Notes under the pieces: model-generated
Told to the model about the DNA's origin: nothing
The model's database searches: none
What the model saw: the letters and a program-made list of their open reading frames with translations, nothing else
Translations under genes and position numbers: made by a program
Shown here: piece after piece, positions 5,581 to 29,640 of the stretch
Numbering within the stretch: the stretch's first letter is position 1
How the letters are laid out: each line of letters starts with the position of its first letter
Virus record (IMG/VR): IMGVR_UViG_3300030419_008158
Coordinates: 1 to 64,000 of that record
Strand: one strand, 5' to 3'
DNA length: 64,000 bases
DNA from: a virus

Positions 5581-5777
5581 CCCTTTAGAATCCTTTTTCT
5601 ACCTTCAGATAAAACTTCTGCAGCTGTTCCCAAAACTCTCTTTTCAGATGTTTTTATATTTTCAGCGACGAGAAGATCTCCAGCGATATAAGCAAACTCA
5701 TCGCCTGTGATCTTATTTAACTCTCGAAGAACTTTAGTCTGTTGCGGACTTAGTGTCTCTTTGTGATTGAATATCAT
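5577..5777 (-). CDS. Hypothetical small protein before groEL
   Basis: The ATG at 5777 follows GGAGG by five bases, giving 66 residues starting MIFNHKETLSPQQTKVLREL. Its stop overlaps the groEL start (ATGA), so the two are translationally coupled. It does not resemble GroES. Residues 6-25 could be a small helix-turn-helix (SPQQTKVLRELNKITGDEF). Function unknown. Confidence 0.65.
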   Translation of the reverse strand: MIFNHKETLSPQQTKVLRELNKITGDEFAYIAGDLLVAENIKTSEKRVLGTAAEVLSEGRKRILKG

Positions 5778-6570: not shown

Positions 6571-6986
6571 AAAATCTCCTCAGGAAGATGCACTCTAGCT
6601 TGAGTTCCATCTTGCAATGTAATGGTCTGTATCTCGTTTGACAATAGTGAGCTATCAGGAGTCGATGGCTGTTCTTGTTTTCCTGCAGAAGACTCAAAAA
6701 GCTGTGCTTTTTCTCGGGCAGCAACTGATAGTTTTCGAACCATGTCAGTTGCCAAAATTAGCAAATGTGACTCTGCTTCGTCTACTGATTCAAAAACGCC
6801 TGCAAGACTTTGATTGTTCACGTGCTCTTCAAGCGCAAATGTCTTGCCTGATGTTCCGGCACACATGTGTTGAACTGTTGTTCCCGTAAGATCCTCAAGC
6901 GTTTGCTTCGAAGTTACTTGTATTGGCTCTATTGTCTTTGTTTTATTAGAGACAATGTAAAGAAGTTGTCCTATCCTGTAAGTCAT
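6567..6986 (-). CDS. Conserved hypothetical phage protein
   Basis: The 139-residue protein opens MTYRIGQLLYIVSNKTKTIE, a pattern that I recall in uncharacterised proteins of T4-like marine phages, where a short beta-barrel-like start is followed by helices. A Ser/Pro-rich linker precedes a C-terminal segment ending RVHLPEEIL. It overlaps the genes on both sides by four bases. No function can be given. Confidence 0.7.
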   Translation of the reverse strand: MTYRIGQLLYIVSNKTKTIEPIQVTSKQTLEDLTGTTVQHMCAGTSGKTFALEEHVNNQSLAGVFESVDEAESHLLILATDMVRKLSVAAREKAQLFESSAGKQEQPSTPDSSLLSNEIQTITLQDGTQARVHLPEEIL

Positions 6987-7642
6987 TCACACGCCTCAAA
7001 TTCGTATTTGAAGTTTGTAGGTGTATTTTTCCAATAATCGATTGAGCGCAGTATATTGGCTTTCTTTTTCACCGCTTTTCTACTGCATCCTTTGAGTTTT
7101 TCACTTAACTTTTGAAGCTCTATCTCATTTTTGCTCTTAACTTCGCCCCACAAAACTCTGCACTTCTTTTCTGCAAAGTGCTTTATCAGCTTAGCTTTAC
7201 CTCTTGATGATTTAGAAGGAGTAGAAAAATCTTCACTAGTCAATCCGACATAGTGAAGAACAACAAACTTTTCAAATGACCTATCTGCAATCACATACAG
7301 GTAGTCTAGACTTCCTTTTTTGACCAGTGTTGCATAGTCAGTCTGCAAATTAATTCCACCTGTAGGAGTAGGTGTAGTAATCTTGCACTCGAGCTCTTTT
7401 CCTAGCTCGCCGATCACAATGTCAGGCTCACCTGTCTTGCCATCGCTTACAACGTCTCTATACCTCTTGGAAAGCTCTTTAGCGAAAAATTCTTCTTGTG
7501 CAGAAGACATAAGAATATTTCTTCGGCCCGTATTTCCTAGAAACGGCATGCCGTGCCTGTTGTGAAGATGTAACAAATCACTGTGGAACATTCGCATGCC
7601 CATAAGGGCATTATGAACATGGGATCTTGTAACATAACTCAT
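6983..7642 (-). CDS. Putative PD-(D/E)XK endonuclease
   Basis: The catalytic core of a restriction-type nuclease fold is visible: an acidic residue in SAQEEFF (E50/E51), GEPDIVIG with D74, then ELECKIT with E85 and K87. These residues bind metal and cut DNA in this superfamily. The C-terminal 60 residues are Lys-rich, suiting DNA contact. AGGAGG precedes the ATG and a good sigma-70-type promoter lies at 7672-7700, so this gene heads an operon that runs on to the FEN and groEL genes. Substrate (host DNA, recombination or packaging intermediate) is unknown. Confidence 0.7.
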   Translation of the reverse strand: MSYVTRSHVHNALMGMRMFHSDLLHLHNRHGMPFLGNTGRRNILMSSAQEEFFAKELSKRYRDVVSDGKTGEPDIVIGELGKELECKITTPTPTGGINLQTDYATLVKKGSLDYLYVIADRSFEKFVVLHYVGLTSEDFSTPSKSSRGKAKLIKHFAEKKCRVLWGEVKSKNEIELQKLSEKLKGCSRKAVKKKANILRSIDYWKNTPTNFKYEFEACE

Positions 7643-7671
7643 ACAGCCTCCTAAGTTTATAAGACATCCTT

Positions 7672-7700
7672 ATTATATCATAGGTGGGTATAATTTACAA
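7672..7700 (-). promoter_or_regulatory. Sigma-70-like promoter upstream of the nuclease operon
   Basis: On the minus strand TTGTAA (7695-7700) is followed after exactly 17 bases by a perfect TATAAT (7672-7677). The start codon of the nuclease gene is 30 bases further, behind AGGAGG. Similar boxes occur at about 24.1, 35.4 and 45.5 kb. Confidence 0.7.
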
Positions 7701-7702
7701 GT

Positions 7703-8047
7703 TTATGACACTGAAGATCGAACTCTTTCTGATATTTTTTTGCCTGCTTCGATCGCCATACTCATAGGTTCAAGACCTAGTACTTCTCTAACTCTATCGT
7801 ATGTTTCAGCATCTAGACCATTTTTTAGGGCCAGCATATCTGCATATTGATGCAAATCTAACTGTGTCACGGGCAAATCTTCACCATCTGGGCCCGGCTC
7901 GAAATCTCCGGTCTCTCTAGACTCAAAGATAAAAAGCATTCTGGGCATTTCTTCTCCGTCTGGGACGGCGACAAACGGAATATGACTAGTCAAACCATTT
8001 TCATCAGCTTCTTCGTAGTATATTTCTGGGATCCATTGATTATTCAT
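7703..8047 (-). CDS. Conserved hypothetical phage protein (114 aa)
   Basis: The protein starts MNNQWIPEIYYEEADENG and includes LFIFESRETGDFEPGPDGED, a phrase I recall from uncharacterised proteins of marine T4-like phages. It is acidic, with a helical C-terminal half. AGAGGA lies before the ATG. It is the last gene of the presumed head-accessory cluster, just before the promoter at 7.7 kb. Function unknown. Confidence 0.72.
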   Translation of the reverse strand: MNNQWIPEIYYEEADENGLTSHIPFVAVPDGEEMPRMLFIFESRETGDFEPGPDGEDLPVTQLDLHQYADMLALKNGLDAETYDRVREVLGLEPMSMAIEAGKKISERVRSSVS

Positions 8048-8055
8048 AAATTCCT

Positions 8056-9396
8056 CTAAAGTCTCGCGCGCTTTTGTAAGTCGGCGAATTCTTTATAAGC
8101 ATCCATGTAAGTGTCGTAAACCTTCAAAAATTCTTCGCTAGAAAACAAATCAGAAGATCTCTGTCTAATCAAATTCATTGTTTCATTGTCGAGTGCTAAG
8201 AGCTTGTGATTCTCTTCTATTACAGATATAAATTTTTTCAAATCTGACGTATAATTTTCATCAAATTTTGCTTTTGATGTTTTGAAAACTGCCTGGATTG
8301 CTGTGTCCAAAAAATCTTCGTCAGATAAGCTCTCCACTGCGACTTGTTTTGCATCTGCTACCTGTTTTTTAAAGTCATCAGTTGCTGCTATTTTTTTTGC
8401 TTGTTGTTCAATTTGCGGGAGCATATCCCCAAAACCCTTTACAGACTCAGGGGGCATATCTGCACTCTTGACAATGTCAGCGACGGTTTTTTTGAATGCT
8501 GCCAAATCTCTAGTTCCAACCAACTTCATAATAGCTGTAGAGGATGTAATCGAATCTATCATTTCAGACATGAGCTCTGTTTTTTGCTCTAATGCTTCAG
8601 CTGCAGCATCTGTAAACTGCTCATCGATGCCTGTCATCTCAAAAAATGATGAAAGCCACTCCTCTGGGTTGGTTATTTTATCATCGCCGGGTGGTTCTTT
8701 CTTTTTTTCTTGTTCATCTTGTTCGTAAAGATCTGTTTCTGATAAGTCACCTCCGGCGACTTTCGCGGCTTGAACGTCGCTCGGGCCGCGGCCCATAAAG
8801 AGGTTGTTTAGCTGCATTAACAAGTTGTTTTGCTGTGCCATTTGATCGTGAATTGCACCAATTCCCATCTCGACGCCGGCTTGTGGGTTTTCTTCTGTTC
8901 CTGTTTGAAACTTGTTAATTTTTGCACGCATTGACTCCCAATCTTCGGCGACGATAATCTCAGTTGCTGTTTTGCCCGCTTTTATTCCAGCCTGCACGCC
9001 TTTAGTTGCCAAAAAGACTTGCGGTGCCAGCGCAACTGTCAAAAAAGGATCAGCATTATTGAGTGCGTCCATGCTGTTCTTTACAATTGGCTCCCATTCT
9101 TTGAGAATTTTATCTCTTTTTCTATTATAATTGTCACCCGCTTCTTTTAGCTTTGCAGGATTGTTTCTATAAAGAAACTTTTCACCCAAAAATCGAAGCT
9201 CGTTAGATATGTCCATCGCAGTTAGCTTCAAACTTTTAAAAATATCGCCCATTGCGTTTCCAATGGCAGCAAAAAGACCAGAGTCAGCGTAATAAGGATC
9301 AGAGACTTCTTGAATGTTCTTTTTATTTCTTAGAATTTCTCTATATTTTCTTCGCGACTCAAGATATCGAATTTGTTCATAAATATTTTTTGACAT
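8056..9396 (-). CDS. Large helical protein, presumed virion or internal protein
   Basis: At 446 residues this is mostly alpha-helical, with a hydrophobic stretch near 115-140 (FLTVALAPQVFLATKGVQAG) and a charged disordered hinge near 225-245 (EQDEQEKKKEPPGDDK). No enzyme motif is visible. AGAGG precedes the ATG. It sits in a run of acidic, low-complexity proteins that look like head-core or internal proteins. That role is inferred from context only. Confidence 0.7.
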   Translation of the reverse strand: MSKNIYEQIRYLESRRKYREILRNKKNIQEVSDPYYADSGLFAAIGNAMGDIFKSLKLTAMDISNELRFLGEKFLYRNNPAKLKEAGDNYNRKRDKILKEWEPIVKNSMDALNNADPFLTVALAPQVFLATKGVQAGIKAGKTATEIIVAEDWESMRAKINKFQTGTEENPQAGVEMGIGAIHDQMAQQNNLLMQLNNLFMGRGPSDVQAAKVAGGDLSETDLYEQDEQEKKKEPPGDDKITNPEEWLSSFFEMTGIDEQFTDAAAEALEQKTELMSEMIDSITSSTAIMKLVGTRDLAAFKKTVADIVKSADMPPESVKGFGDMLPQIEQQAKKIAATDDFKKQVADAKQVAVESLSDEDFLDTAIQAVFKTSKAKFDENYTSDLKKFISVIEENHKLLALDNETMNLIRQRSSDLFSSEEFLKVYDTYMDAYKEFADLQKRARL

Positions 9397-16618: not shown

Positions 16619-17047
16619 TCATTTTTTTGGACTAAACTGTCGAACTTTTTTTTGTGATTCCGCTAGTAGATCAAGGCCTGCTGTATCTCTATATGTTTCA
16701 TCAAATACAATCTCATCAATGTTGCCGTTGACGAGTGCTTTGGCACACATTTTGCAGGGTGATAGCGTGACATACATTTTCTTTTTCTTAGGGTTGTTGT
16801 AGTCAAGCTTTATAAGCGCATTAATTTCTGCATGAATACATCCACTTTGTCCAGGCTCTAAAGAATCAACTGTATTTGATCCACCTGATTGATCTCCGTT
16901 ATACCCAACTGAAAGAACTTGAGTATTGTCATCTGAAACTATCACAGCCCCTACTTTATAGCGAGGATCTATACTTCTTTCAGATATTGCATGTGCTACT
17001 TTCATCCATATGTCATCCCACTCAGGTCTATTTTTCTTTTTTGTCAC
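16619..17047 (-). CDS. dCMP deaminase
   Basis: This enzyme turns dCMP into dUMP for thymidylate synthesis. The zinc site is complete: CIHAEINAL and SPCKMCAKAL, with the catalytic Glu in HAE. A GTG start at 17047 (MTKKKNRPEWDDIWMKVAHA) is favoured because GGAGG lies about seven bases upstream, within the end of the DHH gene; the TTG further back lacks this. At 142 residues it is slightly short of T4 Cd. It feeds ThyX encoded at 26.7 kb. Confidence 0.93.
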   Translation of the reverse strand: MTKKKNRPEWDDIWMKVAHAISERSIDPRYKVGAVIVSDDNTQVLSVGYNGDQSGGSNTVDSLEPGQSGCIHAEINALIKLDYNNPKKKKMYVTLSPCKMCAKALVNGNIDEIVFDETYRDTAGLDLLAESQKKVRQFSPKK

Positions 17048-17942
17048 TAGGGCCCTCCGCAACTAAATTAGGAATTATGCTGGCATCGTCTGGTGTCACA
17101 TGCGCATCGTTCTGGAATACATCATCTACGTGAACGGTACTTGGAAGCGAAAATCCTGCTGCTTTTTTGTGTCCTCCTCCTCCAAATTTTTTAGCAATTT
17201 CACTTACATCTACGTCATCATGAAAACTTCTCAAGCTCACTCGATATTCGTGTCTATCATGATCATAATACCAGACTACAGCGTAGTCACAATCGGGTGA
17301 TAGTTTTGCTCCAATTTCACTCATCCAATGTGAGCTATTGACAACATAGACTTTCTTTCTATTGCATGTACGTAAAGTAGCTCTATCAGCTATTTTTTTT
17401 ATAACTGTTTTTGAATAGGCAAGTATGTAAGAACCTCTTTTGCATGCTTCTTGAAAAACACTGTCATCCTCGTATTCTGTAAATGCTTCAAATTCAAAGG
17501 GGACCATTGCAAAAGCTGCAGAAAATTCTTTGCTGTATTCTAATTCCCATTTCCAAAGATCACGATCTTCGATGTAGTCTATGAACTTAGGCGGTTTTTT
17601 GTTTGGATGGAAAAAGTCCCATGATAATCGTGCTCCCGATTTACTCATATCAAAAATTGTGTCTGTTATGTCATGAAGTTCTACAAGCGCAGATTTATGA
17701 TGATCTATCACAATAAGACTTTTTGATTTTTCAATCATTGCTTTTGTAGTAGAGTTGTCATAAGAAAAGTCTAAGATTGCAACATTTTTTCCTGTCACAT
17801 CGGGTGGGGGATCACCGTGTGTTGCTGCGTGATATTCAGCTTTATTTCCTAAAAGCTTCCATGCAGCCCACGCTGCACCAAAGCCATCGCTACAATTGGC
17901 GTGATATATTACAAAATCTATCTTGGCGGGATCATGACTCAT
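17028..17942 (-). CDS. DHH-family phosphoesterase
   Basis: The 304-residue protein has the DHH domain order: N-terminal FVIYHANCSDGFGAAWAA, then AILDFSY and VIDHHKSA (the DHH-type metal motif), and a DHHA1 domain with GGGGHKKAAGFS near 265-277. Relatives degrade short oligonucleotides (nanoRNase) or cyclic dinucleotides. Either would fit, since a phage could recycle nucleotides or clear a signalling nucleotide. GGAGA precedes the ATG. It overlaps the dCMP deaminase gene. Confidence 0.88.
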   Translation of the reverse strand: MSHDPAKIDFVIYHANCSDGFGAAWAAWKLLGNKAEYHAATHGDPPPDVTGKNVAILDFSYDNSTTKAMIEKSKSLIVIDHHKSALVELHDITDTIFDMSKSGARLSWDFFHPNKKPPKFIDYIEDRDLWKWELEYSKEFSAAFAMVPFEFEAFTEYEDDSVFQEACKRGSYILAYSKTVIKKIADRATLRTCNRKKVYVVNSSHWMSEIGAKLSPDCDYAVVWYYDHDRHEYRVSLRSFHDDVDVSEIAKKFGGGGHKKAAGFSLPSTVHVDDVFQNDAHVTPDDASIIPNLVAEGPSDKKEK

Positions 17943-17952
17943 ATTTCTCCGT

Positions 17953-18504
17953 TTATCTCAAAAACCCTGTGTGATCATGACATCTTGGTTCATACTTCTC
18001 AGAGCCTCCGACATCAATTTGACTCAATCCTTCCACTTTTGGAACAGTGTAGAAAGCATCTTTGCCGCATATGGGACAAACAGCAGGGCATACTTCTATT
18101 CTGGTAGCCCATGGAAACATTTTTTGAACTTCTGCAAACGTTTCTCCCCTAGCAGATAACTGAATTGTGGAAACAAAAACTGTCTTGCCTTTTGAGAACA
18201 AATCTATTAGCACATCAGACACACCGTCTATCATAAAAGCTTCATCAACTGCAATAATATCACAATCACGTGATGTGTCTAGTATATCGCTCCCAGAAGA
18301 GACACACTTTGCATCCCACTTATATCCTGCATGTGTGACAATGGAGTCAACTAAATATCTATGGTCCATTTTGGGCTTGTAAGCTGCTATCTTTTTAGAC
18401 TGGTATTTTGCTCTGTCGAGTGCTGCTAACATTCTACTGGTTTTTCCGCCAAACATCGGGCCCGTAAACAAGACAAACTCAGGATCAGTCTTGACGCTAC
18501 TCAT
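17953..18504 (-). CDS. tdk: Thymidine kinase
   Basis: Type II thymidine kinase, phosphorylating thymidine to dTMP. The P-loop GPMFGGKTS, the IIAVDEAFMID Walker B region and two zinc-binding pairs (CPAVCPICG and the C-terminal C-H-D-H) are present. ATG at 18504 (MSSVKTDPEFVLFTGP) is chosen over one seven codons upstream. It overlaps the epimerase stop by eight bases. It belongs to the nucleotide-salvage set with dCMP deaminase and ThyX. Confidence 0.95.
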   Translation of the reverse strand: MSSVKTDPEFVLFTGPMFGGKTSRMLAALDRAKYQSKKIAAYKPKMDHRYLVDSIVTHAGYKWDAKCVSSGSDILDTSRDCDIIAVDEAFMIDGVSDVLIDLFSKGKTVFVSTIQLSARGETFAEVQKMFPWATRIEVCPAVCPICGKDAFYTVPKVEGLSQIDVGGSEKYEPRCHDHTGFLR

Positions 18505-19513
18505 TCGTAAGTTCCCACCATGCAAGAGTTTTGTTCATACCTGACTCGAAGGATTCCTGAGGTGACCATCCCGTGTCAAATCCAATTTTCTGAACTGATG
18601 CGAGTGTGTGCTTTACATCCCCAGGACGCTCTGGGGCATTTTTAACTCCAAACCCTCCTACTTTTTCATCGAGCATTTTTAGAATTTCATTGTTTGAGAC
18701 TGCGCTTTCTGTGCCGACGTTATAATAGCGAAAACCTGAAAGGTTTTTGTGAGAAGCACATGTATACATCGCACTGGCAACATCTGTCACGTAGACCATA
18801 TCTCTAGTTTGCTCGCCATCACCATCTGACCGGAGCATCTCTTTGCTTTTAAGTTTGTCACACCATGCAGCAACAGCAGTTGCATACGGATTATCTCCAG
18901 TGCAACCCGGACCATATACATTAAAAAATCTTAGTGCAACACTATCAACATCATAGAGGTCACTAAACTGCTTCATGAAAAGCTCGCACACAAATTTTTG
19001 AAGCCCGTATGGACTGTTAGGGTTGCATTCAGTATCTTCGTGTGTAGCTGACACTTTTTTACCACCGGAAACATCTCCGTATACAGAAGACGACGATGCA
19101 AATACGAAACGATCAATATTTGCTTTGCGACAAGCGCTTAAAAGCTCAACAGTTTTCATCAAGTTCACTTCAGTTGAAATTGCTGGAAATTCAACACTAA
19201 AGCCCACCCTAGGGTTTGCTGCTAGATGAAAGACATGCGTATATCCGCCACTTACAAAGTGGCTCAAAACTTCAGAATCAACAAAGTCACCGGTAATAAC
19301 AACGGCATCTTTTTTAGATGTTGCCTCGTTCTTGTCAAGCGCTGCCACCAAGCTAGGAATTACTACACGCACCTCCAAACCCTTGTCTGTCAAATTAGAA
19401 ATATCCCCAGAGGATAAATCATCCACAACAGTTACGCTGGCACCCTCATCCACCAATTTTTTTACTAAGTGTGCACCAATAAATCCACACCCGCCTGTCA
19501 CTAACGCCTTCAT
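18497..19513 (-). CDS. NAD-dependent sugar epimerase/dehydratase
   Basis: An extended short-chain dehydrogenase of the UDP-glucose/UDP-glucuronate 4-epimerase type. It has the NAD motif TGGCGFIGAHLV at residues 7-18, the catalytic SSSSVYGD region and SPYGLQKF with Tyr and Lys three apart. Length (338) fits the family. The substrate cannot be told from sequence. A second epimerase lies at 24.1-25.1 kb, so the phage may alter nucleotide sugars for host surface glycans or DNA glycosylation. GAGG precedes the ATG. Confidence 0.9.
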   Translation of the reverse strand: MKALVTGGCGFIGAHLVKKLVDEGASVTVVDDLSSGDISNLTDKGLEVRVVIPSLVAALDKNEATSKKDAVVITGDFVDSEVLSHFVSGGYTHVFHLAANPRVGFSVEFPAISTEVNLMKTVELLSACRKANIDRFVFASSSSVYGDVSGGKKVSATHEDTECNPNSPYGLQKFVCELFMKQFSDLYDVDSVALRFFNVYGPGCTGDNPYATAVAAWCDKLKSKEMLRSDGDGEQTRDMVYVTDVASAMYTCASHKNLSGFRYYNVGTESAVSNNEILKMLDEKVGGFGVKNAPERPGDVKHTLASVQKIGFDTGWSPQESFESGMNKTLAWWELTNE

Positions 19514-20442
19514 TTTACCTCCTCATTGTCGTTCCATGATGGCAAATCATATCTAATGTGTGCACAATTTAGACGAACACTAATGTCTATTGCACTCACA
19601 GGTAATTTATAAACCTTCGCAACTTGCAAAGATAAATGACATAAAAATCTCAAATCAACAGAAGCATTTCTATGTACATCTGTGCTACGGAAGACCCCTA
19701 ACACCTTAAGCAACCCATTCCTTATGAGAAAATGTACAGAAGATATACAGGAGTCACTAGAATAGTAAAATCTACGACTGTCTAAGCCTTGCGGTTTGTT
19801 ATAAGGATTGTCGCCTGAAAATTCTTTTGCAAATATGTCTGTTGTTTTCTGCAAAATTTCGCGATAGTAATCCTTTTCACCCGGATGTTCCATTACTCTA
19901 GAAAAATCATTTTCAATTGACGGACTAAACTCTACGTTGATTGTTGCTTCTCCGTCACAAGCTTCAACTGCGTCAATTGTTGCTTTTCCAATAGAGTCGA
20001 TTCCGCCCTTGTCAAATGAGCACAGCCACTCTATGCATGTGTCTGCTAACTCATCTTGCGAAAGTACATCTTCTATCACTAAAACATTTGGAAAAGCTGC
20101 TATCTTTTTTGTTTCATCTTTGAAAATACTGTGCAATCTACAAAGGCTTTTTTTATCTTGAAATTCATCGCCCCGGACGTTCAGCCGCCTTATAAGCTCA
20201 TCTTTTGGCGGAATTACAATAATGACCCTATTGTTCAGATTTAAAAGTTCTCTTTTGAGACCCTGCCTATGACTTTTTGTATCTCTTCCAAACTGTCTTG
20301 CATAACAGATCATTGATAAAAAAGATCGATCTTGAATATTCCATAAAAAATTAGTCTTTTTATGAATTTTTTGATACAACGTTGTCTTGCCTGAAAGGTC
20401 AGGGCCTTCTATTGTCACTATTTGCGTTGGAAACTTTGTCAT
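19510..20442 (-). CDS. P-loop nucleotide kinase fused to thymidylate synthase/dCMP hydroxymethylase-like domain
   Basis: Residues 1-145 form a thymidylate-kinase-like P-loop domain (TIEGPDLSGKTTLYQKI, then LIRRLNVRGDEF). Residues about 185-310 follow the synthase fold: LDSRRF (phosphate-binding Arg 223-224), catalytic C232 in SCISSVHFLIRNG, R252-S253-x-D255, and D263. The Cys-to-D263 distance is 31 residues, as from C148 to D179 in T4 dCMP hydroxymethylase; dUMP-specific synthases have Asn there. This points to a cytosine nucleotide substrate. The synthase part lacks the usual N-terminal segment, so it may be reduced or inactive. ATG at 20442 overlaps the polymerase stop. Confidence 0.72.
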   Translation of the reverse strand: MTKFPTQIVTIEGPDLSGKTTLYQKIHKKTNFLWNIQDRSFLSMICYARQFGRDTKSHRQGLKRELLNLNNRVIIVIPPKDELIRRLNVRGDEFQDKKSLCRLHSIFKDETKKIAAFPNVLVIEDVLSQDELADTCIEWLCSFDKGGIDSIGKATIDAVEACDGEATINVEFSPSIENDFSRVMEHPGEKDYYREILQKTTDIFAKEFSGDNPYNKPQGLDSRRFYYSSDSCISSVHFLIRNGLLKVLGVFRSTDVHRNASVDLRFLCHLSLQVAKVYKLPVSAIDISVRLNCAHIRYDLPSWNDNEEVK

Positions 20443-23400
20443 TATGCAACTCTTCTTAGTTTGTATGCAGAAGTTGACATTCCCCAATTCGGATCATTAG
20501 AGACATGAGCCATCCAGAGCGTGTATTTGTCAATGTCAGAGTCAAGCTTGCCCCATACTCTCAACCATCCTGTCTTATGATTATTGTCTGTGACTCTGAG
20601 CCTATAAAAATCTTTTCCATTTTTTGTTTTCTTCTTGATCACATCAACAATAACAAACCAGCCGATACCCTTGCCTCCGGCGGGAACATCATGGACTGAG
20701 AGGACATTTTTATCTTTGAGGCGGTTCATCAAGCTTGTCGGAAACAAAAGGTCTCCATCAACTGTGGACGTCAAGTCATAAGAAAGTTCGACTTTTTCAA
20801 CACGACTCCAATCTTCCACATCAAAAAAATCAGATAAAATCTGGTCCAAAAATACTTTTGGTTCTTCGCCTGCCTTTTCGAGCTTTTTTATTTGTGTTTT
20901 AGTTAGGCCGTAAATACCTTTTCTGAGCTTTTCGTAATTTTTTTCATGAGTTAGTGCTTCTAGAAGCTGTCGATGACTCGAAACAGATCCGTTCGTAAAC
21001 TCTTCGAGAGACTGTAAAGCCTCAATTTTGCACAGTGATGAAAGACATGTCTTGTTCATTTTACTATGCTTCCACACGCCATTTTCATCATAAAACATGT
21101 CAACTAAAGACTTATACGGACGCATTTCCAAAATTTCTTTCATCGCGGTAGATCCAATACCTTTGACAGCTGAAAGTGGAGGTACAAATGCATTGATGTC
21201 TTTGGAAAATTCCCATTCTTCTCCCGAATAATTTACATCGATCTGTGCGAAATCAAATCCGTATGACTTTATCTCAGAAATTGCTTTTGACAAATTTGTA
21301 GGGCTATTATTTTCGGATTGAAGGATTGTAGCTAGCCACTCGTGCTCGTAATGGGTGTGCAGCCATGCTGCGTAATACGAATCAATGGCATAAGACACTG
21401 CGTGTGATTTATTGAAACCATACACAGAGAAAGCCTCGATAGTCTTCCAGAGAGCTTCTGTGATACTTCTATCAATGCCATGGAGACTGTAGGCACCTTC
21501 AACAAACTTTTTACGTGCAGCCTCTCGCTCCCCACCTTTTTTGCCCATTGTATCTAGTGACTTCTTAACCAGTGTCTTTCGAAGCTTATCAGACTCACCG
21601 GGCGAGAATCCAGCTAGTTCCACTGCCAGTGTCATAAACTGCTCTTGAAAAACAACAAAGTTAAATGTCGGCCCTAGCACTTTTTCGATCACAGGATGAT
21701 CATACTTGATCTCTGATGCATTCTTTTTAGCTTTTACATATTTCCTATGGACATTGGCTTTTAAGGGTCCTGGGCGGTAAATAGCTGTCAATGCAGCTAA
21801 CTCTGTAATGGTTGTCGGTTTGGCGGCTAGACAGAAACGTCTTGCACCTGTTGCTGTAAACTGAAACACGCCTGTAAATCTACCATCGTGATACACGTGC
21901 TTCCACACCTCAGGATCATCCTGCTGATTATACCGACAATTGAGATGCTCATCAAAGAACTTCTTGATATCAGCAAATGTCGGATTAGGATTTCCTTGCT
22001 TCTTGAGAATGCGACCGATGCAATTTTCAACATCTTTAAGCAGCGTCAATCCAAGAAAGTCAAACTTTAAAAATCCATTGTCTTCAAGATTTCTAAAGTT
22101 CATTCCTTCTGTCCAGGGGGTCTGGAGTTCGCCCCGAACACCGATGATGGGCATTGTAGATGCCAGCTCGTCTGGAGGCGCAATAATTACGCCGCCGGCG
22201 TGTCGACCAATGGATCGATTTTCCATAAATAGTGTTTCAACATGTTTTCCTACCTCTGGATACTTTTCCATAAAGTCGCGGTAGCCCTTAGAGTACTTCA
22301 GACAGTCCTCGTGCTTTAAGACGAAAACAGACTTTTCCTGATTTTCGTCTTTCGCATGTTTCATAACTTCATCTTGTAAAGGTCCTGTCATCTTATTGAC
22401 TTCTGCAAAGTCAATTCCATAAAATTTTGAAATATCTTTAATTAGTGACTTTAGCTTGAGTGTGTTAAAGTTAGATACAGGAATAACTGCGTCGTCGCCA
22501 AATAGTTCACGAGATGCATCAATCAAAGCATCACGATCGCCAGCATCAGTGTCGATATCAGGCCAAGATGTTCTGTGCCTCCCAAGAAATCGAGACCAGA
22601 GCAAACCGTGGGGCAAAGGATCAATTTGTGTAATCCCTAACAAGTAATTGACAAGTGATCCAGCACCTGATCCCCGACCCGGGCCGAAGAGAGTTCGCTT
22701 TTCAGCAAGATGGAAAATCTTGTACATTGCCAAAAAGTACGCTTCGTACCCGAGATACTTGATGTCAGACATCTCCTCCTTCATGCGTGCAACATATTCA
22801 GGTTTCGAAGCAAGACCCTCTCGAATCATAGCTTCTTTGACGAGATCAGCTAGCATTTTAAAAGCAGGCTTTTCAGGTGATCCAAACTTGGGCAGCTTTA
22901 CTGACGTGTCTATCCAAGTGTCTTCGCATTTTTGCCACGTGATGTCGTGAGTACGCTCAATTGCGTCTCGAACATTCTCTTCATGCCCCTTGTAGAAGTC
23001 GTATTCGTCATATCCCGCCTTGAACTCGTCCCACATCTGGTGAGCATTTTTAGGGTACAGCTTGCACTTCAAGTCTTCTTCCTTGGGAAGCATACTTTGA
23101 TCTAGCTTTGCGCCCATCCACCCAAGCTTTTTATAAAGTTCACGAGCCTGCCATTTTTGCGGATCAGGAAAATGAGAATCCGCAGTTGCAATGAGAGGGA
23201 TTCCTGTTTTTTGAGACAGATCCAGCAAGCATCTGTTTGTCAAATGCTGCGCTGGAAGATCGTTAAACTGCATTTCCAAGAAAAAATTGTCTTGTCCAAC
23301 ACAATCAACAAATCTATCTGTCATATTTTCAAGACGATTCATGATAGGATTGTAATCATCTAGATTGTTCATTAGGTCTGGATGAAGCTCATCAAATCTT

Positions 23401-24068
23401 AGACCTCCAAACTGTCGATAGATGAGGCCAGACGCGAGGCCGCCTACACACGCTGTAGAAACAATCAACCCTTCGCCGTGTTCCTTGAGCATTTTGTAGT
23501 CAATCCTAGGAAAACGATAAAAACCGTGCTTGTATGACTTTTTAACTAGTGTGAAAAGATTACCTAGACCTACTTGGTTTTTTGCAACCACGACAAGATG
23601 ATAATATCGCTTCCACTCAGGCTTATTCCCTCTGGAACGCTTTGTTTCCTCTTCGTCCTCAATAACATGGCCGCCTTGCTCGACCTCTTGGTCAGCAATA
23701 ATAACAGTGTTTTCTGTTGCAAGCTTTTCTTTTTGCTTTGAGGATTTGGCATCTTTGACAGCTTGTCGGTGCATGTCATAAGATTCTCGCCAATCTTCTA
23801 GTGACGGGACAAAGTAAAACTCGACGCCATAGATCTGTCGATACTTTCGGCCGGCCTTTTGCATTTTTACTGTGTGTGATCGGGCGTGAGCCAGGCCTGA
23901 GCCGTTACCGTGGTCTGTAAGTGCCCATGAGTCCATTCCTTGAGCTTCTGATAGAACAAAATCGATATGTTCTTTAGGATAACCCAATCCATCAAATGTG
24001 CTAAATGATGAGTGTGCGTGAAGGCCTGTAAAACGATTAGGTCTTCGAAACTTGCTAAATTGTGACAA
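20442..24068 (-). CDS. dnaE: DNA polymerase III alpha subunit (DnaE type)
   Basis: A family C replicative polymerase of 1208 residues. The N-terminal PHP domain keeps its metal motifs (GLHAHSSFS at 15-23, LTDHGNGSG near 50). The palm has FGPGRGSGAGSLVNY and the catalytic PDIDTD near 503-508, followed by the KK-rich fingers and a C-terminal OB domain. A PHP insertion near 105-150 is Lys/Glu-rich. The start is TTG at 24068, seven bases after AGGAG; no better ATG is available. T4-like phages normally use a family B enzyme, so this is an unusual replacement. Clamp and loader genes are outside the window. Confidence 0.96.
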   Translation of the reverse strand: MSQFSKFRRPNRFTGLHAHSSFSTFDGLGYPKEHIDFVLSEAQGMDSWALTDHGNGSGLAHARSHTVKMQKAGRKYRQIYGVEFYFVPSLEDWRESYDMHRQAVKDAKSSKQKEKLATENTVIIADQEVEQGGHVIEDEEETKRSRGNKPEWKRYYHLVVVAKNQVGLGNLFTLVKKSYKHGFYRFPRIDYKMLKEHGEGLIVSTACVGGLASGLIYRQFGGLRFDELHPDLMNNLDDYNPIMNRLENMTDRFVDCVGQDNFFLEMQFNDLPAQHLTNRCLLDLSQKTGIPLIATADSHFPDPQKWQARELYKKLGWMGAKLDQSMLPKEEDLKCKLYPKNAHQMWDEFKAGYDEYDFYKGHEENVRDAIERTHDITWQKCEDTWIDTSVKLPKFGSPEKPAFKMLADLVKEAMIREGLASKPEYVARMKEEMSDIKYLGYEAYFLAMYKIFHLAEKRTLFGPGRGSGAGSLVNYLLGITQIDPLPHGLLWSRFLGRHRTSWPDIDTDAGDRDALIDASRELFGDDAVIPVSNFNTLKLKSLIKDISKFYGIDFAEVNKMTGPLQDEVMKHAKDENQEKSVFVLKHEDCLKYSKGYRDFMEKYPEVGKHVETLFMENRSIGRHAGGVIIAPPDELASTMPIIGVRGELQTPWTEGMNFRNLEDNGFLKFDFLGLTLLKDVENCIGRILKKQGNPNPTFADIKKFFDEHLNCRYNQQDDPEVWKHVYHDGRFTGVFQFTATGARRFCLAAKPTTITELAALTAIYRPGPLKANVHRKYVKAKKNASEIKYDHPVIEKVLGPTFNFVVFQEQFMTLAVELAGFSPGESDKLRKTLVKKSLDTMGKKGGEREAARKKFVEGAYSLHGIDRSITEALWKTIEAFSVYGFNKSHAVSYAIDSYYAAWLHTHYEHEWLATILQSENNSPTNLSKAISEIKSYGFDFAQIDVNYSGEEWEFSKDINAFVPPLSAVKGIGSTAMKEILEMRPYKSLVDMFYDENGVWKHSKMNKTCLSSLCKIEALQSLEEFTNGSVSSHRQLLEALTHEKNYEKLRKGIYGLTKTQIKKLEKAGEEPKVFLDQILSDFFDVEDWSRVEKVELSYDLTSTVDGDLLFPTSLMNRLKDKNVLSVHDVPAGGKGIGWFVIVDVIKKKTKNGKDFYRLRVTDNNHKTGWLRVWGKLDSDIDKYTLWMAHVSNDPNWGMSTSAYKLRRVA

Positions 24069-24143: not shown

Positions 24144-25106
24144 CTAATAAAATTCAGTCAAGTCGATATTGTTTTCTTTTGCCTGCTCAAGATATTTGAG
24201 TGGATTATAAGAACTGCATCCTTCGCGAATCGACTTCCATGCATCTTGAATTCCTTCGCTCAAGGTAAAATTTGGTTTCCAGCCATACTCCGTTCGAAAC
24301 TTTTCACTTGAAAGCCTGTGATTCCCTAGATAGTCTGTGTTAGGATACCAGTTGACACATCCAGCAAGATCAAATTCTGCCACGTCAGACATCAATTCTA
24401 TGATCGCACCTGTCTCCAGAGGAGTTTCGGCTGAAATATTAAAATCATCATTCCAGACGCTTCCGTGACACGCTACAGCAACTGCATCGCAAAAATCTTC
24501 GACATGCATATAATCTTTGTACTTCGCAGGATCCAAAAACATGTCAATTTTTTCATGTTTGTTTTTGAGATATGAATAAAAAGTCTTAGCGATCAAAGAG
24601 TTCATATCACCCACACCTCCGTAAGCAAATAGTGGGCGCACTATCAACCACTTGTCACAGTGTGTGGTTACGATATTTTCTGCTGCTAGCTTTTGTATCC
24701 CGTATAGTGTTCTTGGGTACTTTGTTGATTCTTCTGTGATCCAATCGTCCTGGTAATTTGGTGTATCATATATTACAGTAGTCCCAATATAACAAACAGG
24801 AATTTTGAGTCTTTTTGCTGCACGACAAATTGTATGTGTCCCTGTCACATTTGAAAGAGTCGATTCACCTGGATTTAATGCAACGACATCAGTCCCAACA
24901 ACAGCAGCATTGTGTATAATAAGGTCAACGCCATGTTTACGCAAGGCGTTGACCCACTCCTCAACTGTATTATTGTAGACGCATACTTCTGTGCCTCGCA
25001 TATTCATATCGTTGTTCAGCGTAACAGCTTCGCTGCCGAGCTTTAACAAAGACTTGGGCAAATTTTGTGCAATAAAGCCTTCTTCGCCTGTGATGAAAAT
25101 ACGCAT
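24144..25106 (-). CDS. NAD-dependent nucleotide-sugar epimerase/reductase
   Basis: A second extended short-chain dehydrogenase, 320 residues. The NAD site reads TGEEGFIAQNLP (GxxGxxA-like) and the catalytic segment is IGTTVIYD followed by TLYGIQKLAAEN with Tyr and Lys three apart. Overall it resembles GDP-fucose synthase/dTDP-rhamnose-type enzymes more than the epimerase at 18.5 kb. It ends at a terminator and lies just after a deoxyribosyltransferase gene. Substrate unknown. Confidence 0.88.
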   Translation of the reverse strand: MRIFITGEEGFIAQNLPKSLLKLGSEAVTLNNDMNMRGTEVCVYNNTVEEWVNALRKHGVDLIIHNAAVVGTDVVALNPGESTLSNVTGTHTICRAAKRLKIPVCYIGTTVIYDTPNYQDDWITEESTKYPRTLYGIQKLAAENIVTTHCDKWLIVRPLFAYGGVGDMNSLIAKTFYSYLKNKHEKIDMFLDPAKYKDYMHVEDFCDAVAVACHGSVWNDDFNISAETPLETGAIIELMSDVAEFDLAGCVNWYPNTDYLGNHRLSSEKFRTEYGWKPNFTLSEGIQDAWKSIREGCSSYNPLKYLEQAKENNIDLTEFY

Positions 25107-25108: not shown

Positions 25109-25612
25109 TTACTCGATCGCGTCAGAATAGGGCTCAACAAGAAGCTGCTTTGCTTCGAAGCATCTGTTCAAATAGTCTTCGAGCTCCTCAATGCTGGTAC
25201 AAACCTTTACACCGCTTCTTGCAAGCATCAAGTTGAACTTAGCCCCCTCAGGCAACCCACCACAGTAATACACAATTGGCTTTTGATGTGCAAAGGCGAA
25301 GCCGGCTTCCCAAATAGTTCCAATATCCTTGTCTCTTGTATTGACAATAAGAAAGTTAGCTGCAGTAATTTCTCTGAGATTTCCTAAAAAGGTTTCATCT
25401 TGTGTTTCTTTGGGTGCATCAGGTGGACAGACAAAAATTCTTCTTGGACTTGCAAGATCGATCCAGTCTCTGTCATCACAAACTTTTTCTAGCTGGTCTA
25501 GTTCTTCAGCTTGTGTTGGATTGAACCATCCGGCTGCCAAATATACTTTTTGGGCAACAACTGGATTCTCTGTATTCTCTGTATTCTCTGTATTCTCTGT
25601 ATTCTCAGACAT
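25109..25612 (-). CDS. Nucleoside 2-deoxyribosyltransferase-like protein
   Basis: The fold swaps bases on deoxyribose or cleaves nucleotides. Family features are VYLAAGWFNP (start of a Rossmann-like domain), ANFLIVNTRDKDIGTIWEAG with the nucleophile-region Glu, and AFAHQKPIVYYCGG. ATG at 25612 has GGAGG eight bases upstream. The first 20 residues are a repeat of Glu-Asn-Thr encoded by a 9-base tandem repeat, which is unusual and may vary in length. It could salvage nucleosides or handle a modified base. Confidence 0.8.
   Translation of the reverse strand: MSENTENTENTENTENPVVAQKVYLAAGWFNPTQAEELDQLEKVCDDRDWIDLASPRRIFVCPPDAPKETQDETFLGNLREITAANFLIVNTRDKDIGTIWEAGFAFAHQKPIVYYCGGLPEGAKFNLMLARSGVKVCTSIEELEDYLNRCFEAKQLLVEPYSDAIE
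25562..25606. repeat. 9-bp tandem repeat (five units) in the deoxyribosyltransferase gene
   Basis: Unit TGTATTCTC occurs four times perfectly (25571-25606), preceded by one unit with a single change (25562-25570). It encodes repeated Glu-Asn-Thr at the protein N-terminus and keeps the frame whatever the copy number. Confidence 0.9.
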
Positions 25613-25664
25613 TTCGCTTTCCTCCAAAATCTGTTATTTCGTTTTGCTTGTTGTTAGTAGTCAT
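25605..25664 (-). CDS. Micro-ORF (19 aa) with strong ribosome site
   Basis: An ATG at 25664 has a perfect AGGAG five bases before it. The frame MTTNNKQNEITDFGGKRNV ends eight bases into the next gene, and its last codons contain the GGAGG used by that gene. It could be a real micropeptide or a leader that couples translation from the methyltransferase to the deoxyribosyltransferase gene. Confidence 0.4.
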   Translation of the reverse strand: MTTNNKQNEITDFGGKRNV

Positions 25665-25672: not shown

Positions 25673-25729
25673 CTAAAGCTTATCCTTATAGCCTGGACTT
25701 GCTTGAATTTCATAATTTTCTTTAGACAT
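25673..25729 (-). CDS. Micro-ORF (18 aa) overlapping methyltransferase end
   Basis: ATG at 25729 overlaps the methyltransferase stop by eight bases; the peptide is MSKENYEIQASPGYKDKL. Only a Gly/Ala-rich purine stretch (GGAAAAAAGAAG) lies upstream. It and the next micro-ORF fill the only gap in this operon. Weak evidence. Confidence 0.25.
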   Translation of the reverse strand: MSKENYEIQASPGYKDKL

Positions 25730-26696
25730 TTTCTTCTTTTTTCCAAAAAATATTAGGAAGAGATGCATAAAAATCATGACGACGATCATGCTCCCACCCC
25801 CTTTTACAAACCGCTTTGTGAAAATTTCTTCCCCAACTCCCGGGTTTTTCAACAGGCCCTTCACCAAAGTCATACAGATTAAAGTGTCCGACCGATGTAT
25901 CATATTTTGTCCAGTAAGTACTATACACAAAATTATCACTAATTCTGTTTAGATAGCTGTCGAGCCACGGAAAAGGTGTGCCTGTCTCTTTACTGTCTTC
26001 AGCCTGTATGTGTTCGACAACTTCATAAAAAGTCCCCGCGTCATAAGCGTCTAGCTGGTCACCTATATGAAGATTCTTTAGGCCCATCTCTTTCTTGACT
26101 CTTTCAATTAGCCTTACACTCAGCCCGCTGACTTCACTAACGTATACGTCTGTTTCAGGTAAGTGATAGGCAAACCAAATAGAAGAAATTCCAATCCCTG
26201 CCCCCACATCCAATATTGTCTTGGGCACATAACCTAAGTGATCCCACCACATTAAAGTGTGAAATATCGGAGACGTATTTCTCATTTTGGCTTTGTCAAT
26301 CATCCCAGTCACATTTAAGCCGCACGATACAGTTTCAAACACATAATAGGGATCATCATAAATTGACACATCAAAATTTTGGCGCCAGCGCTGGAGCATG
26401 TCATTGATAATCTTGCTATCGCGATCACCCAGCTGGTCTAACTCTTCCTTGGAAAACTCTGACTTTAATTCATCTTTATAAATTTCTAGAAGTCGCTCAT
26501 AACTTAGGCCTGGGATTGATGGATCGTAGCCTCTTGTTTGTAAAAACTTTCCACCGTAATGATGCTCTTTATTGCCCCACTGGACATACTCGAATTTTTT
26601 AGTTCGCCTTCTTCCAGTGGGTGGCGTGTGCTGATAGTCGAAGTACTTTTTCTCTTTTCCTTCGACTTCCCAGGTTTTTAGAGCATTATCATCCAT
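25722..26696 (-). CDS. SAM-dependent methyltransferase-like protein
   Basis: The 324-residue protein has the S-adenosylmethionine motif TILDVGAGIGISSIWFAYHL (near 160-180), followed by an acidic residue in VYVSEVSG that would bind the ribose and FYEVVEHI in the usual motif IV place. The N-terminal 130 residues are helical and unfamiliar. Target is unknown: small molecule, glycan or nucleotide are all possible, given sugar-nucleotide and nucleoside genes on either side. The start overlaps the thyX stop by eight bases. Confidence 0.75.
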   Translation of the reverse strand: MDDNALKTWEVEGKEKKYFDYQHTPPTGRRRTKKFEYVQWGNKEHHYGGKFLQTRGYDPSIPGLSYERLLEIYKDELKSEFSKEELDQLGDRDSKIINDMLQRWRQNFDVSIYDDPYYVFETVSCGLNVTGMIDKAKMRNTSPIFHTLMWWDHLGYVPKTILDVGAGIGISSIWFAYHLPETDVYVSEVSGLSVRLIERVKKEMGLKNLHIGDQLDAYDAGTFYEVVEHIQAEDSKETGTPFPWLDSYLNRISDNFVYSTYWTKYDTSVGHFNLYDFGEGPVEKPGSWGRNFHKAVCKRGWEHDRRHDFYASLPNIFWKKEENV

Positions 26697-27657
26697 TCTC
26701 GTAAGCTGCCTTCAATGCCTGGAACTCTTCCATTAAGTCACGCCACATAGTTGTAAAAACTTTCTCTCCAGTTCCATGTGTCCCGTTGAGCTCTTCACGT
26801 CGACAGGGATAAATTGTGTCGGCCTCATGATACTCAAACGTATCATTCTTTGGTTCAGGCTGGTACAAGTTTGTACCTCGGCTAATCCACTTATCACCTT
26901 CCTTTACGCGGAACGTATTGATATAATGGAAATCCGGTTTATCAAAATTGAACACTTGAGTCAGCTCAGGAATTGCCTTGCATGCGGCGATGGCCATCTC
27001 AGCAGCTAAAATATTGTCAGCTGCAGGCTGAATCTGCACGTCTTGTCTCTGACGGACGAATCCGATCAAATCTTTAAGATTAAGTCGCATATAGTAAAAA
27101 GAAGTCATGCATTTCGGCAAAATCATTCTTGCGTCCATCATAGAAATAACTTTAGAATCAGTCATATCTGCATACAGCTGCTTAGACTGTCTAACAATCT
27201 CCTTGTAGCGCTCCAGGTACTCGGGCGAGTTTTCGACAGACTCCGGAACAACGGCAGGATCATCTCTAAGATCGCGGTCGCCGGTACATTGGGCTGCAAA
27301 AGATCCTGCTCGATGTCGAATAATATGAGTTACTTCCTGAAAAGATAGGCCAGACAATCTAAACGTGAACCCCAGACATTCCATGGGAGTTGGAAGCGCA
27401 CGAAACTGCAAAACATCTAGAAGATTTTTACTCTTGATGCTATCCGGTACCTCGTCAGGCCTGATTTCACTAGGGTCGTCGGCCCAAGTAGCCTTTACGT
27501 AATGCCACGCGACATCTCGTGCTTGATTTGTTGTGGGGGCGTCAACCAATTCAACATTAAGAGCTTCTAAATTATTACAAAACTCTGTATCAAACGGTCT
27601 ACCAAATTTTAGATCCATCGGAAGTTCGATAGGCTCTAGATCATTATTTAACGGCAT
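26689..27657 (-). CDS. thyX: Flavin-dependent thymidylate synthase
   Basis: ThyX makes dTMP from dUMP using FAD. The signature R-H-R-x-x-S is present in HIIRHRAGSFAAQC, and LRFSGLSF-like and NLKDLIGFVRQRQDVQIQPA segments match the substrate-binding region; helical framework as expected. At 322 residues it is longer than typical (about 220-250), with an extra C-terminal 60 residues rich in charged groups. GGAGC precedes the ATG. The thymidylate supply here is ThyX plus dCMP deaminase, thymidine kinase and dUTPase. Confidence 0.9.
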   Translation of the reverse strand: MPLNNDLEPIELPMDLKFGRPFDTEFCNNLEALNVELVDAPTTNQARDVAWHYVKATWADDPSEIRPDEVPDSIKSKNLLDVLQFRALPTPMECLGFTFRLSGLSFQEVTHIIRHRAGSFAAQCTGDRDLRDDPAVVPESVENSPEYLERYKEIVRQSKQLYADMTDSKVISMMDARMILPKCMTSFYYMRLNLKDLIGFVRQRQDVQIQPAADNILAAEMAIAACKAIPELTQVFNFDKPDFHYINTFRVKEGDKWISRGTNLYQPEPKNDTFEYHEADTIYPCRREELNGTHGTGEKVFTTMWRDLMEEFQALKAAYENG

Positions 27658-27876: not shown

Positions 27877-28818
27877 TCAAGAACGTAATGCGATACTCTC
27901 GACGAGTGATGCAACGTCGCCTTCTTCCCAATCGAATGCATAGATTCCATCATGATTCATAACTCCCATGTTGTAATTTCTTTTCGGCACAAGACACGGC
28001 ACACCGTGCATAACATACTCAGAGGCATGTTTAGGTGAGTCATCAATTGCACACACAACTTTTCCCTGCTTGTATGCTTCGAGCGAAGATACTGCAATAT
28101 ACTTTTCTGAACTTAGCTGCACAGAGTCAAATTCTTTTACATACTTGTCAAGCCATTCATATGTCTCGTGCATACACTTTAGCTCGGTTTCTGGGCGTGC
28201 TGTCAAAATATGAATCCAATACCCTTTTTTTCTGAGGGTTTTTAGACTTTTGATCACGTTATCACAAGTATCTATTTTTCTTAGACTTCCAGAATCAATA
28301 AACTCAATAAGCAGCTGGTCGCCTGACTTTCCTTCTACTGGTTTGCTTAGAAAATATTCATTTGATCTATGATCGACATTGCATCCCGGGTATGTTTCAT
28401 TTACCCAATCATAGAAATTTTGTCTAAATCTGGCAATTACGTCATCAACATCAACAACGACAACTTTTTGTCCGCTCCACTTTGATAGATTTTTTTCTGT
28501 TCGGACTCTTAGATTAGCATCTCTAGACTCAAACGCACTAATTGCATCATTTTCGTCATAGTCCCATAAATTTAGTATAGACAAGCAGTATCGATAAACA
28601 TCCATCGTTTCAAATAGAATATTCTGCATATGTGTAGGAGTGATGTTCGGCCTGTGCTCTCGATAGTGGACTGAATCTGCCAGCTGCGTGAGCTCGCTTT
28701 GCATCGCAAGACAAAGTGTCTTGTGCTTCTCAATTTTCTCCTGCTCAGACATTTTGTCTGAATTGTAGAAATTTCTAGAAAAATTCTTTTGCTTGTCAAG
28801 CATTTTCTTTAAGTCCAC
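27877..28818 (-). CDS. MazG/dUTPase-like helical domain fused to HAD-type 5'-nucleotidase
   Basis: Residues about 20-105 are an all-alpha pyrophosphatase-like domain (CLAMQSELTQLADSVHYREH, then ILFETMDVYRYCLSILNLWD with the second Glu/Asp pair). Residues 118-300 are a HAD phosphatase of the 5'(3')-deoxyribonucleotidase kind: VVVDVDDVIARFRQNFYDW (nucleophile Asp), HILTARPETELK (motif II) and AIDDSPKHA (motif IV). The first domain would make a dNMP and the second could dephosphorylate it. Start is GTG at 28818, after GAGGAG. The fusion is unusual. Confidence 0.78.
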   Translation of the reverse strand: MDLKKMLDKQKNFSRNFYNSDKMSEQEKIEKHKTLCLAMQSELTQLADSVHYREHRPNITPTHMQNILFETMDVYRYCLSILNLWDYDENDAISAFESRDANLRVRTEKNLSKWSGQKVVVVDVDDVIARFRQNFYDWVNETYPGCNVDHRSNEYFLSKPVEGKSGDQLLIEFIDSGSLRKIDTCDNVIKSLKTLRKKGYWIHILTARPETELKCMHETYEWLDKYVKEFDSVQLSSEKYIAVSSLEAYKQGKVVCAIDDSPKHASEYVMHGVPCLVPKRNYNMGVMNHDGIYAFDWEEGDVASLVESIALRS

Positions 28819-28830: not shown

Positions 28831-29058
28831 CTAAAAAGGATTGTTGACAAGATAAGCGACGTACTCTATAATCTCTTGTTCGTCGCTATCTTCGCAATCC
28901 TTGTAAGATTTACCCATCTTTGTCTTGATACAGCGCCAAATATGAGCGTATGGGTTTCTTGCAGAATGATTTGGACTATCAGGAAGATTTCCTTCTAATG
29001 CTTTTCCGCCAAGCGCAACTGCTTGTCGTATTCTTTCAGCAACTTCAGGAGACATCAT
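28831..29058 (-). CDS. Conserved small phage protein
   Basis: The second ATG (29058) is taken as start, overlapping the dUTPase stop (TGATG). The protein reads MMSPEVAERIRQAVALGGKA and contains NPYAHIWRCIKTKMGKSYKD, a phrase I have seen only in uncharacterised phage proteins next to dUTPase genes. 75 residues, helical. Function unknown. Confidence 0.65.
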   Translation of the reverse strand: MMSPEVAERIRQAVALGGKALEGNLPDSPNHSARNPYAHIWRCIKTKMGKSYKDCEDSDEQEIIEYVAYLVNNPF

Positions 29059-29423
29059 CAATAGCCGCCATTAATTCTATCTAAATTTATTTGGCCTTTT
29101 TTCATGTACATTTTATACATTTCTTCATAAGAAATTCCTGAGTACAGGAGAATGCCTATTAGATAATGCAAAACATCGCTTAGCTCCTCTGTGTAAGCGT
29201 CTCGATCAAAATCACTTATTTCAGTGCTTCTATGACTTTTGGCGTTCTTAAGAAGCATATTAGATTCAAATAGCTCATGCATACATTCGTGTGCAAGAGA
29301 TTTTAGAAATTGTTGACTCTTTTTTTCAGAAAGATCGAGTGGAAAATCAGGAAAGTCTCTTTTGTCACGAAGCAGCTCAAGAAACTCTTTTTGCTGCTCA
29401 AACATAATTTCAAACTTTCCCAT
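29058..29423 (-). CDS. Dimeric-type dUTPase (all-alpha dUTP/dCTP pyrophosphatase)
   Basis: This enzyme removes dUTP, and in the T4 relative gp56 also dCTP. Family pattern is clear: FEQQKEFLELL start, HECMHELFESNML (first Glu pair), AYTEELSDVLHYLIGILLYS (E-x-x-x-D) and YMKKGQINLDRINGGY at the end. The start at 29423 (MGKFEIMFEQQ) lines up with family members; ATGs at 29432 and 29444 are alternatives. At 121 residues it is short but complete. It keeps uracil out of DNA and supplies dUMP to ThyX. Confidence 0.85.
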   Translation of the reverse strand: MGKFEIMFEQQKEFLELLRDKRDFPDFPLDLSEKKSQQFLKSLAHECMHELFESNMLLKNAKSHRSTEISDFDRDAYTEELSDVLHYLIGILLYSGISYEEMYKMYMKKGQINLDRINGGY

Positions 29424-29424
29424 A

Positions 29425-29640
29425 TCACTCATCAGAAGACTCATTCAATTTATTAGCTTCTTCTCGCAACTTCTCAAGATTATTTTCAAAGTTCTCAGAA
29501 TACTCAGGATCGGGATCCAGAATACCATCTTCGTCAACAAACCTCATTGTGCGAAGATTGTCAGTAATGTCTGTACCCGTAAGAAGGGCAAGCTGCAAAA
29601 CTCGTACGAGCTGTGAAATGCTGTTGTCAGAAAGACGCAT
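29425..29640 (-). CDS. Conserved hypothetical protein (71 aa)
   Basis: GGAGG lies six bases before the ATG. The N-terminal half MRLSDNSISQLVRVLQLALL and TGTDITDNLRTMRFVDEDG match a pattern that I recall from small T4-like phage proteins of unknown function. The rest is an acidic helix. It leads directly into the dUTPase gene. Confidence 0.7.
   Translation of the reverse strand: MRLSDNSISQLVRVLQLALLTGTDITDNLRTMRFVDEDGILDPDPEYSENFENNLEKLREEANKLNESSDE

Follow-up and report, generated by a model that had tools for sequence, protein, structure and literature searches.

A compact thymidylate synthase-superfamily domain fused to a nucleotide kinase in a large phage: a candidate cytosine-modifying enzyme linked to a divergent ThyX

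The window analyzed here is a 64,000-nucleotide stretch of viral DNA (positions 1 to 64,000 of the 284,429-bp IMG/VR record IMGVR_UViG_3300030419_008158). At positions 19510-20442 of the minus strand lies an ORF with an ATG start, confirmed as a real ORF, which encodes a 310-residue protein with a kinase domain joined to a compact thymidylate synthase (TS)-like domain. The protein domains, the surrounding genes, and a second ThyX gene of the same phage are as follows.

16619..17062, minus strand: dCMP deaminase (Pfam E 2e-21; PHROG 174 E 3.4e-42)
17953..18525, minus strand: thymidine kinase (Pfam TK E 2.9e-32; 62 loci)
18497..19513, minus strand: NAD-dependent sugar epimerase (Pfam Epimerase E 3e-51; 57 loci)
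19513..20010, minus strand: compact TS-superfamily domain, C-terminal part of the fused protein (about residues 145-310)
20014..20442, minus strand: P-loop nucleoside-monophosphate kinase domain, N-terminal part of the fused protein (residues 1-143)
20442..24068, minus strand: DnaE-type DNA polymerase, a conserved neighbor
24144..25106, minus strand: second NAD-dependent sugar epimerase of the same gene run (Pfam Epimerase E 6.6e-26; 59 loci)
25109..25627, minus strand: nucleoside 2-deoxyribosyltransferase-like (NDT-like) protein (PF05014 E 5.1e-13; 89 loci)
26689..27657, minus strand: divergent second ThyX-like protein, the constant genetic partner (Pfam Thy1 E 1.2e-18)
27877..28818, minus strand: all-alpha NTP pyrophosphatase fused to a HAD deoxyribonucleotidase (dUTPase_2 E 2.9e-5, NT5C E 1.2e-5; 74 loci)
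29058..29444, minus strand: MazG/dUTPase_2-like pyrophosphohydrolase (PHROG 12184 E 3.1e-12; Pfam dUTPase_2 E 7.2e-6)
261015-261635 of the 284,429-bp record, minus strand: canonical ThyX of the same phage (E 4.7e-52)

The start of the fused gene overlaps the stop of the upstream DnaE gene by one base (TAATG), and its stop overlaps the start of the downstream epimerase gene (ATGA), as in a compact operon. The kinase domain harbors an intact Walker A motif, G13-PDLS-G18-K19-T20 (G13-x4-G18-K19-T20), as well as D38-R39, R53, R86, and R90-G91-D92; its fold, Walker A, and LID/DR motifs place it among the P-loop nucleoside-monophosphate kinases of the thymidylate kinase-like type. The C-terminal domain contains R223, R224, C232, R252, S253, T254, D255, D263, and H295, with a distance of 31 between C232 and D263, and is assigned to the TS superfamily on the basis of its fold, cysteine nucleophile, phosphate-binding Arg/Ser pair, and active-site histidine. 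When the protein itself is scanned against Pfam, the kinase is matched weakly and the TS domain not at all; single-sequence Pfam is insufficient here, and family profiles and structure prediction are needed to recognize the TS-like domain.

Several GT1/GT2 glycosyltransferase genes are found elsewhere in the phage genome (125574-149026). Together with the epimerases, thymidine kinase, dCMP deaminase, and pyrophosphatases, they would be compatible with a modified, possibly glycosylated base. The NDT-like protein may be an N-glycosidase acting on canonical nucleotides, and the pyrophosphatase-HAD fusion may perform dNTP/dNMP clean-up. Elsewhere in the window, translations inspected by eye point to a GroEL-like chaperonin (3967-5580, minus strand) and, close to it, a sigma-factor-like gene (3026-3718).

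Queried with only the fused protein, IMG/VR returned a single relative, the best segment of which (residues 1-300) is 44% identical; the ThyX-like neighbor and the TS-like domain as queries returned 80 and 51 loci, respectively. HMMER searches of the DNA of the collected loci yielded 71 distinct TS-like sequences, the window's included, of which 66 carry the kinase domain. The family extends over dozens of contigs from large phages, a single contig of an archaeal MAG, and a cultured Geobacillus phage in which the genes are separate. PHROG 761 (“thymidylate kinase”) matches 32 of 35 relatives and PHROG 160 (“thymidylate synthase”) six of 35 members; PF00303, the Pfam TS family, matches none of the 35.

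R223 and C232 are present in 71 of 71 sequences with a constant spacing of 9, and R252, S253, D263, and H295 are present in 69 of 69. The C232-D263 spacing among the 69 is 31 in 58 sequences, 30 in six, and 32 in five. Because six active-site residues are fully conserved at near-constant spacings across 69-71 relatives, the residue pattern is not due to chance. Walker A is kept in all 66 fused relatives, and the other kinase motif residues are conserved in 64-66 of them. A first-pass annotation of the DNA had singled out C232, the arginine pair R223-R224, D263, and the Cys-to-Asp distance of 31, all of which are as it described. Its R-S-x-D motif does occur in the window protein, but the terminal aspartate is not a family feature, the D255 position being occupied by Asp in 26, Asn in 37, and Glu in six of the 69 sequences.

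AlphaFold2 models the whole fused protein with a pLDDT of 93.1 and a pTM of 0.88, and the C-terminal domain alone with a pLDDT of 94.1 and a pTM of 0.88. In Foldseek searches against the PDB, AfhB with bound dCMP ranks first with both models (E 1.8e-5 for the whole protein and 6.1e-7, entry 9iqu, for the domain); T4 dCMP hydroxymethylase (gp42; 1b5d, E 1.1e-5 with the domain), MilA, and thymidylate synthases follow. Phage dCMP hydroxylases, or 5-hydroxy-dCMP synthases, comprise AfhB of phage HY126 (9iqu), 9iqc, and the Mosigvirus-type enzyme. The domain has 227 PDB matches at E ≤ 0.001, and the 50 listed are all TS, gp42, AfhB, or MilA. It covers only part of the TS fold (TMq 0.55), such moderate TM-scores being expected of a half-size member. 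The kinase half matches YorR (3kb2/2axp, TMt 0.63-0.66). The fusion of a kinase with a synthase fold, proposed earlier from the letters of the DNA, is thus borne out, the TS fold being recovered with the whole protein and with the domain alone.

A search of all PDB sequences with the family profile recovers T4 dCMP hydroxymethylase (E 2.4e-5), more weakly the D179N mutant of this enzyme (4.2e-4), and AfhB (0.03), whereas ordinary thymidylate synthases are missing at E values up to 10. Among the six-frame ORFs of about 2.4 Mb, T4 gp42 (E 2.5e-6) is the sole non-family match below 0.3. In hhalign, the family aligns to a profile of gp42 and hydroxycytosine-type enzymes (96.8%, E 2.2e-10, columns 122-222), and R223, C232, R252, S253, D263, and H295 correspond to R123, C148, R168, S169, D179, and H216 of T4 gp42. 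On the basis of the profile search and the profile-profile alignment, and within the TS fold, D263 therefore occupies the D179 position, in agreement with the first-pass annotation. D179 of gp42 goes with cytosine specificity, and the aspartate that replaces Asn177 of TS is found in all 69 sequences of the family. A dCMP-type pocket in the TS-like domain is thus well supported.

An aspartate here is not in itself proof of dCMP specificity, and an NDT-like enzyme belongs to the module, so a different pyrimidine nucleotide could be the substrate, either dUMP or a modified nucleotide from the ThyX-like or NDT-like protein. This is very improbable in our estimate: every characterized enzyme that the sequence searches detect acts on cytosine nucleotides (gp42, AfhB, and, as a weak match, MilA), the family profile does not detect the Asn-type dUMP enzymes, and D263 is invariant.

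The catalytic glutamate of T4-type dCMP hydroxymethylase is E60, and residues 1-121 of gp42, which include it, have no sequence counterpart in the TS-like domain, the hhalign alignment being confined to the columns given above. A structural substitute for E60 or for the N-terminal half of gp42 is conceivable, and E189 may be a stand-in for the glutamate, although its position is immediately ahead of the helix leading to the SRR motif. In TS, folate is contacted by D169, the counterpart of which is D171 in gp42 and, in the window protein, D255, at the position that varies in the family. The sugar-contacting tyrosine of the H-x-Y motif (Y218 in gp42) is not conserved either. A Mosigvirus enzyme included in the alignment shows the same losses: E60 is replaced by Phe, and the motifs read RSQN and SAHVF. 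Common to this hydroxycytosine-type enzyme and the family are the missing E60, Asn at the folate Asp position (frequent in the family), and SAH followed by I or V without the tyrosine. Mosigvirus is reported to make 5-hydroxy-dCMP via a TS-superfamily enzyme (PMC13390438).

Because the E60-containing half has no sequence counterpart and the folate aspartate and the tyrosine are not conserved across the family, the case for a folate hydroxymethylase is weakened, and the reaction may instead be flavin-linked. The domain is not classified as a T4-type hydroxymethylase, since both E60 with its N-terminal half and the H-x-Y tyrosine are lacking. The hydroxymethyl- or methyl-dCMP product anticipated by the first-pass annotation is unsupported for the same reasons, the best structural match being AfhB, a dCMP hydroxylase solved with flavin. 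A classical T4-style reaction would convert methylene-THF and dCMP to 5-hydroxymethyl-dCMP for subsequent phosphorylation by the fused kinase. It draws on gp42 as the closest sequence-profile match, on the presence of D255 in the window protein, and on T4 itself, which has the same two activities in separate genes. We nevertheless find it unlikely, given the losses described above (N or E at the folate position in 43 of 69 sequences), a best fold match that is a hydroxylase, a 284,429-bp phage genome in which DHFR was not detected, and a constant partner that is a paralogue of a flavin enzyme.

This partner, the divergent ThyX-like protein, about which the first-pass annotation was silent, retains the RHR motif, but its NExSxRY loop is replaced by AQCTGDR, a pattern conserved in 65-66 of 66 relatives. 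No PF00303 thymidylate synthase was found in the 284,429-bp genome, where canonical ThyX already supplies thymidylate, leaving the TS-like domain free for another product. The canonical and divergent ThyX genes lie within a few kilobases of each other in several relatives. A methyltransferase-like gene (25722-26696, minus strand) overlaps the divergent ThyX-like gene of the window and occurs in only one other locus; in the relative L001, an unassigned 193-residue protein takes its place.

The TS-like domain and the divergent ThyX co-occur almost strictly. For 43 contigs, the stretch fetched first contained the ThyX-like gene but not the TS-like domain; 20 of them carry that domain at another place. 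Among those of at least 55 kb there is a single exception, and its ThyX gene sits close to the end of the contig. Conversely, a ThyX-type match is present in 16 of the 23 contigs that have the TS-like domain, a few of these matches being weak; most of the other contigs are short. The distant kinase-TS fusions of L146-L150 adjoin a ThyX paralogue without the RHR motif (e.g., L148, 6328-7179), a point against the reading favored below. Phages of Xanthomonas, Alicyclobacillus, the SPbeta-like group, and Bacillus also gave ThyX-like matches but were rejected as carriers of the module: the substrate loops of their ThyX proteins differ, and a TS-like/kinase module was not found in the regions inspected.

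Fusion is only one form of a broader module, since Geobacillus phage GR1 (L003) has the parts as separate genes: kinase, nitroreductase, ThyX-like, and TS-like (3458-8330). The first-pass annotation had contrasted a fused gene here with separate genes in T4, which is correct, although separate genes are also found within the family itself. The TS-like protein of GR1 (UDY80710) is annotated as hypothetical; PHROG 35203, listed as of unknown function, has the same domain. Three further loci (L072, L078, and L151) are arranged like GR1, with a TS-like protein of about 151 residues encoded directly after the ThyX-like gene, the end of which the TS-like gene overlaps in GR1-type phages; another (L075) has the ThyX-like/TS-like pair in the GR1 style near a contig end. 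Upstream in GR1, a 459-residue protein without a Pfam match is annotated as a glycosyltransferase. The NDT-like protein accompanies the module throughout and, like DnaE, is conserved in the fused and GR1 types and in L153, a contig binned as Euryarchaeota. A further locus (L080) encodes NDT-like, HD-domain, kinase, and ThyX-like proteins, the HD-domain protein being homologous to the YfbR-like protein of GR1; the TS-like gene was not detected on this 43.5-kb contig.

With only half of a TS fold and no detectable counterpart of the gp42 N-terminal half, the TS-like domain may depend on a partner or lack activity by itself. It could then be a non-catalytic nucleotide-binding subunit of a complex in which the divergent ThyX-like protein carries FAD and transfers the group, as its half size, the overlapping genes of the GR1 type, and the near-strict co-occurrence would allow. 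We judge this improbable. The cysteine nucleophile, unneeded for mere binding, is conserved in 71 of 71 sequences; in the jumbo phages, the fused gene and the ThyX-like gene are about 5-10 kb or more apart; and L080 has the ThyX-like and kinase genes without a detected TS-like gene.

On balance, and with somewhat better than even confidence, we favor the fused protein as a dCMP C5-modifying enzyme joined to a nucleotide kinase, comparable in function to T4 gp42 plus gp1, within a pathway of cytosine modification linked to ThyX. The TS-like domain would be a minimal member of the dCMP-acting branch of the TS superfamily, which has Asp in place of TS Asn177. R252, S253, and R223/R224 would bind the phosphate of dCMP, D263 would contact N3/N4 of cytosine, and H295 would also participate in dCMP binding. 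Addition of C232 to C6 would activate C5 for installation of the new group. Delivery of this group is probably flavin-aided, either yielding a hydroxyl, the group that phage dCMP hydroxylases install, or employing the divergent ThyX as the donor; stand-alone hydroxymethyl transfer from methylene-folate would be the less likely route. Use of flavin by the TS-like domain is suggested solely by its relatives and its partner. The N-terminal kinase would then convert the modified dNMP to the diphosphate, en route to polymerization by the adjoining DnaE.

As for the product, 5-hydroxy-dCMP and a 5-methyl or other derivative are tentative assignments of equal standing, and 5-hydroxymethyl-dCMP is slightly more doubtful than either; the better sequence score of gp42 relative to AfhB leans toward hydroxymethylation over hydroxylation. 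More speculative, and rather unlikely, is a joint machine in which the half-size TS-like domain, activating dCMP through its cysteine, and the divergent FAD-dependent ThyX act together on C5 before phosphorylation by the fused kinase. Such a machine would merge two unrelated thymidylate synthase chemistries to place a new group on C5.

Modified cytosines allow phages to escape restriction enzymes and CRISPR. In open-access literature on dCMP hydroxylase/AfhB and on kinase-hydroxymethylase fusions, no description of the kinase/TS-like/ThyX module was found. TS-superfamily chemistry is itself known; what is new is the compact TS-fold core, much smaller than the known dCMP enzymes, together with its fusion to the kinase that would act downstream of it and its ThyX partner. 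The module raises the chemical question of how a modified cytosine could arise from an altered flavin enzyme and only half of a thymidylate synthase. PHROG 35203 gains a testable role, and because GR1 is cultured, its DNA is open to direct checking.

Among characterized systems, AfhB and the Mosigvirus type share with the family the cysteine, the R-S pair, the Asp corresponding to TS N177, and the S-A-H motif, and the Mosigvirus enzyme in particular also lacks E60 and carries RSQN. AfhB, however, is a stand-alone, full-length enzyme of about 235 residues with weak sequence similarity (E 0.03), whereas the family has a half-size core that is kinase-fused and ThyX-linked. T4 gp42 has all six active-site equivalents and is paired in T4 with the dNMP kinase gp1, but it is a folate enzyme of 246 residues encoded by a separate gene, with an E60-containing N-terminal half and with a folate Asp and Y218 that the fused-protein family does not conserve. 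MilA, a CMP hydroxymethylase, has the TS fold and a cytosine-nucleotide substrate; its direct sequence match is weak (E 1.1), and it differs in its size (about 320 residues), its ribonucleotide substrate, and its role in antibiotic biosynthesis. The thymidylate kinase-like YorR resembles the other half of the protein in its fold and its Walker A, DR, and RGD motifs but is stand-alone. PHROG 35203 and UDY80710 of GR1 have the same TS-like domain as an unfused ORF of about 151 residues downstream of a ThyX-like gene.
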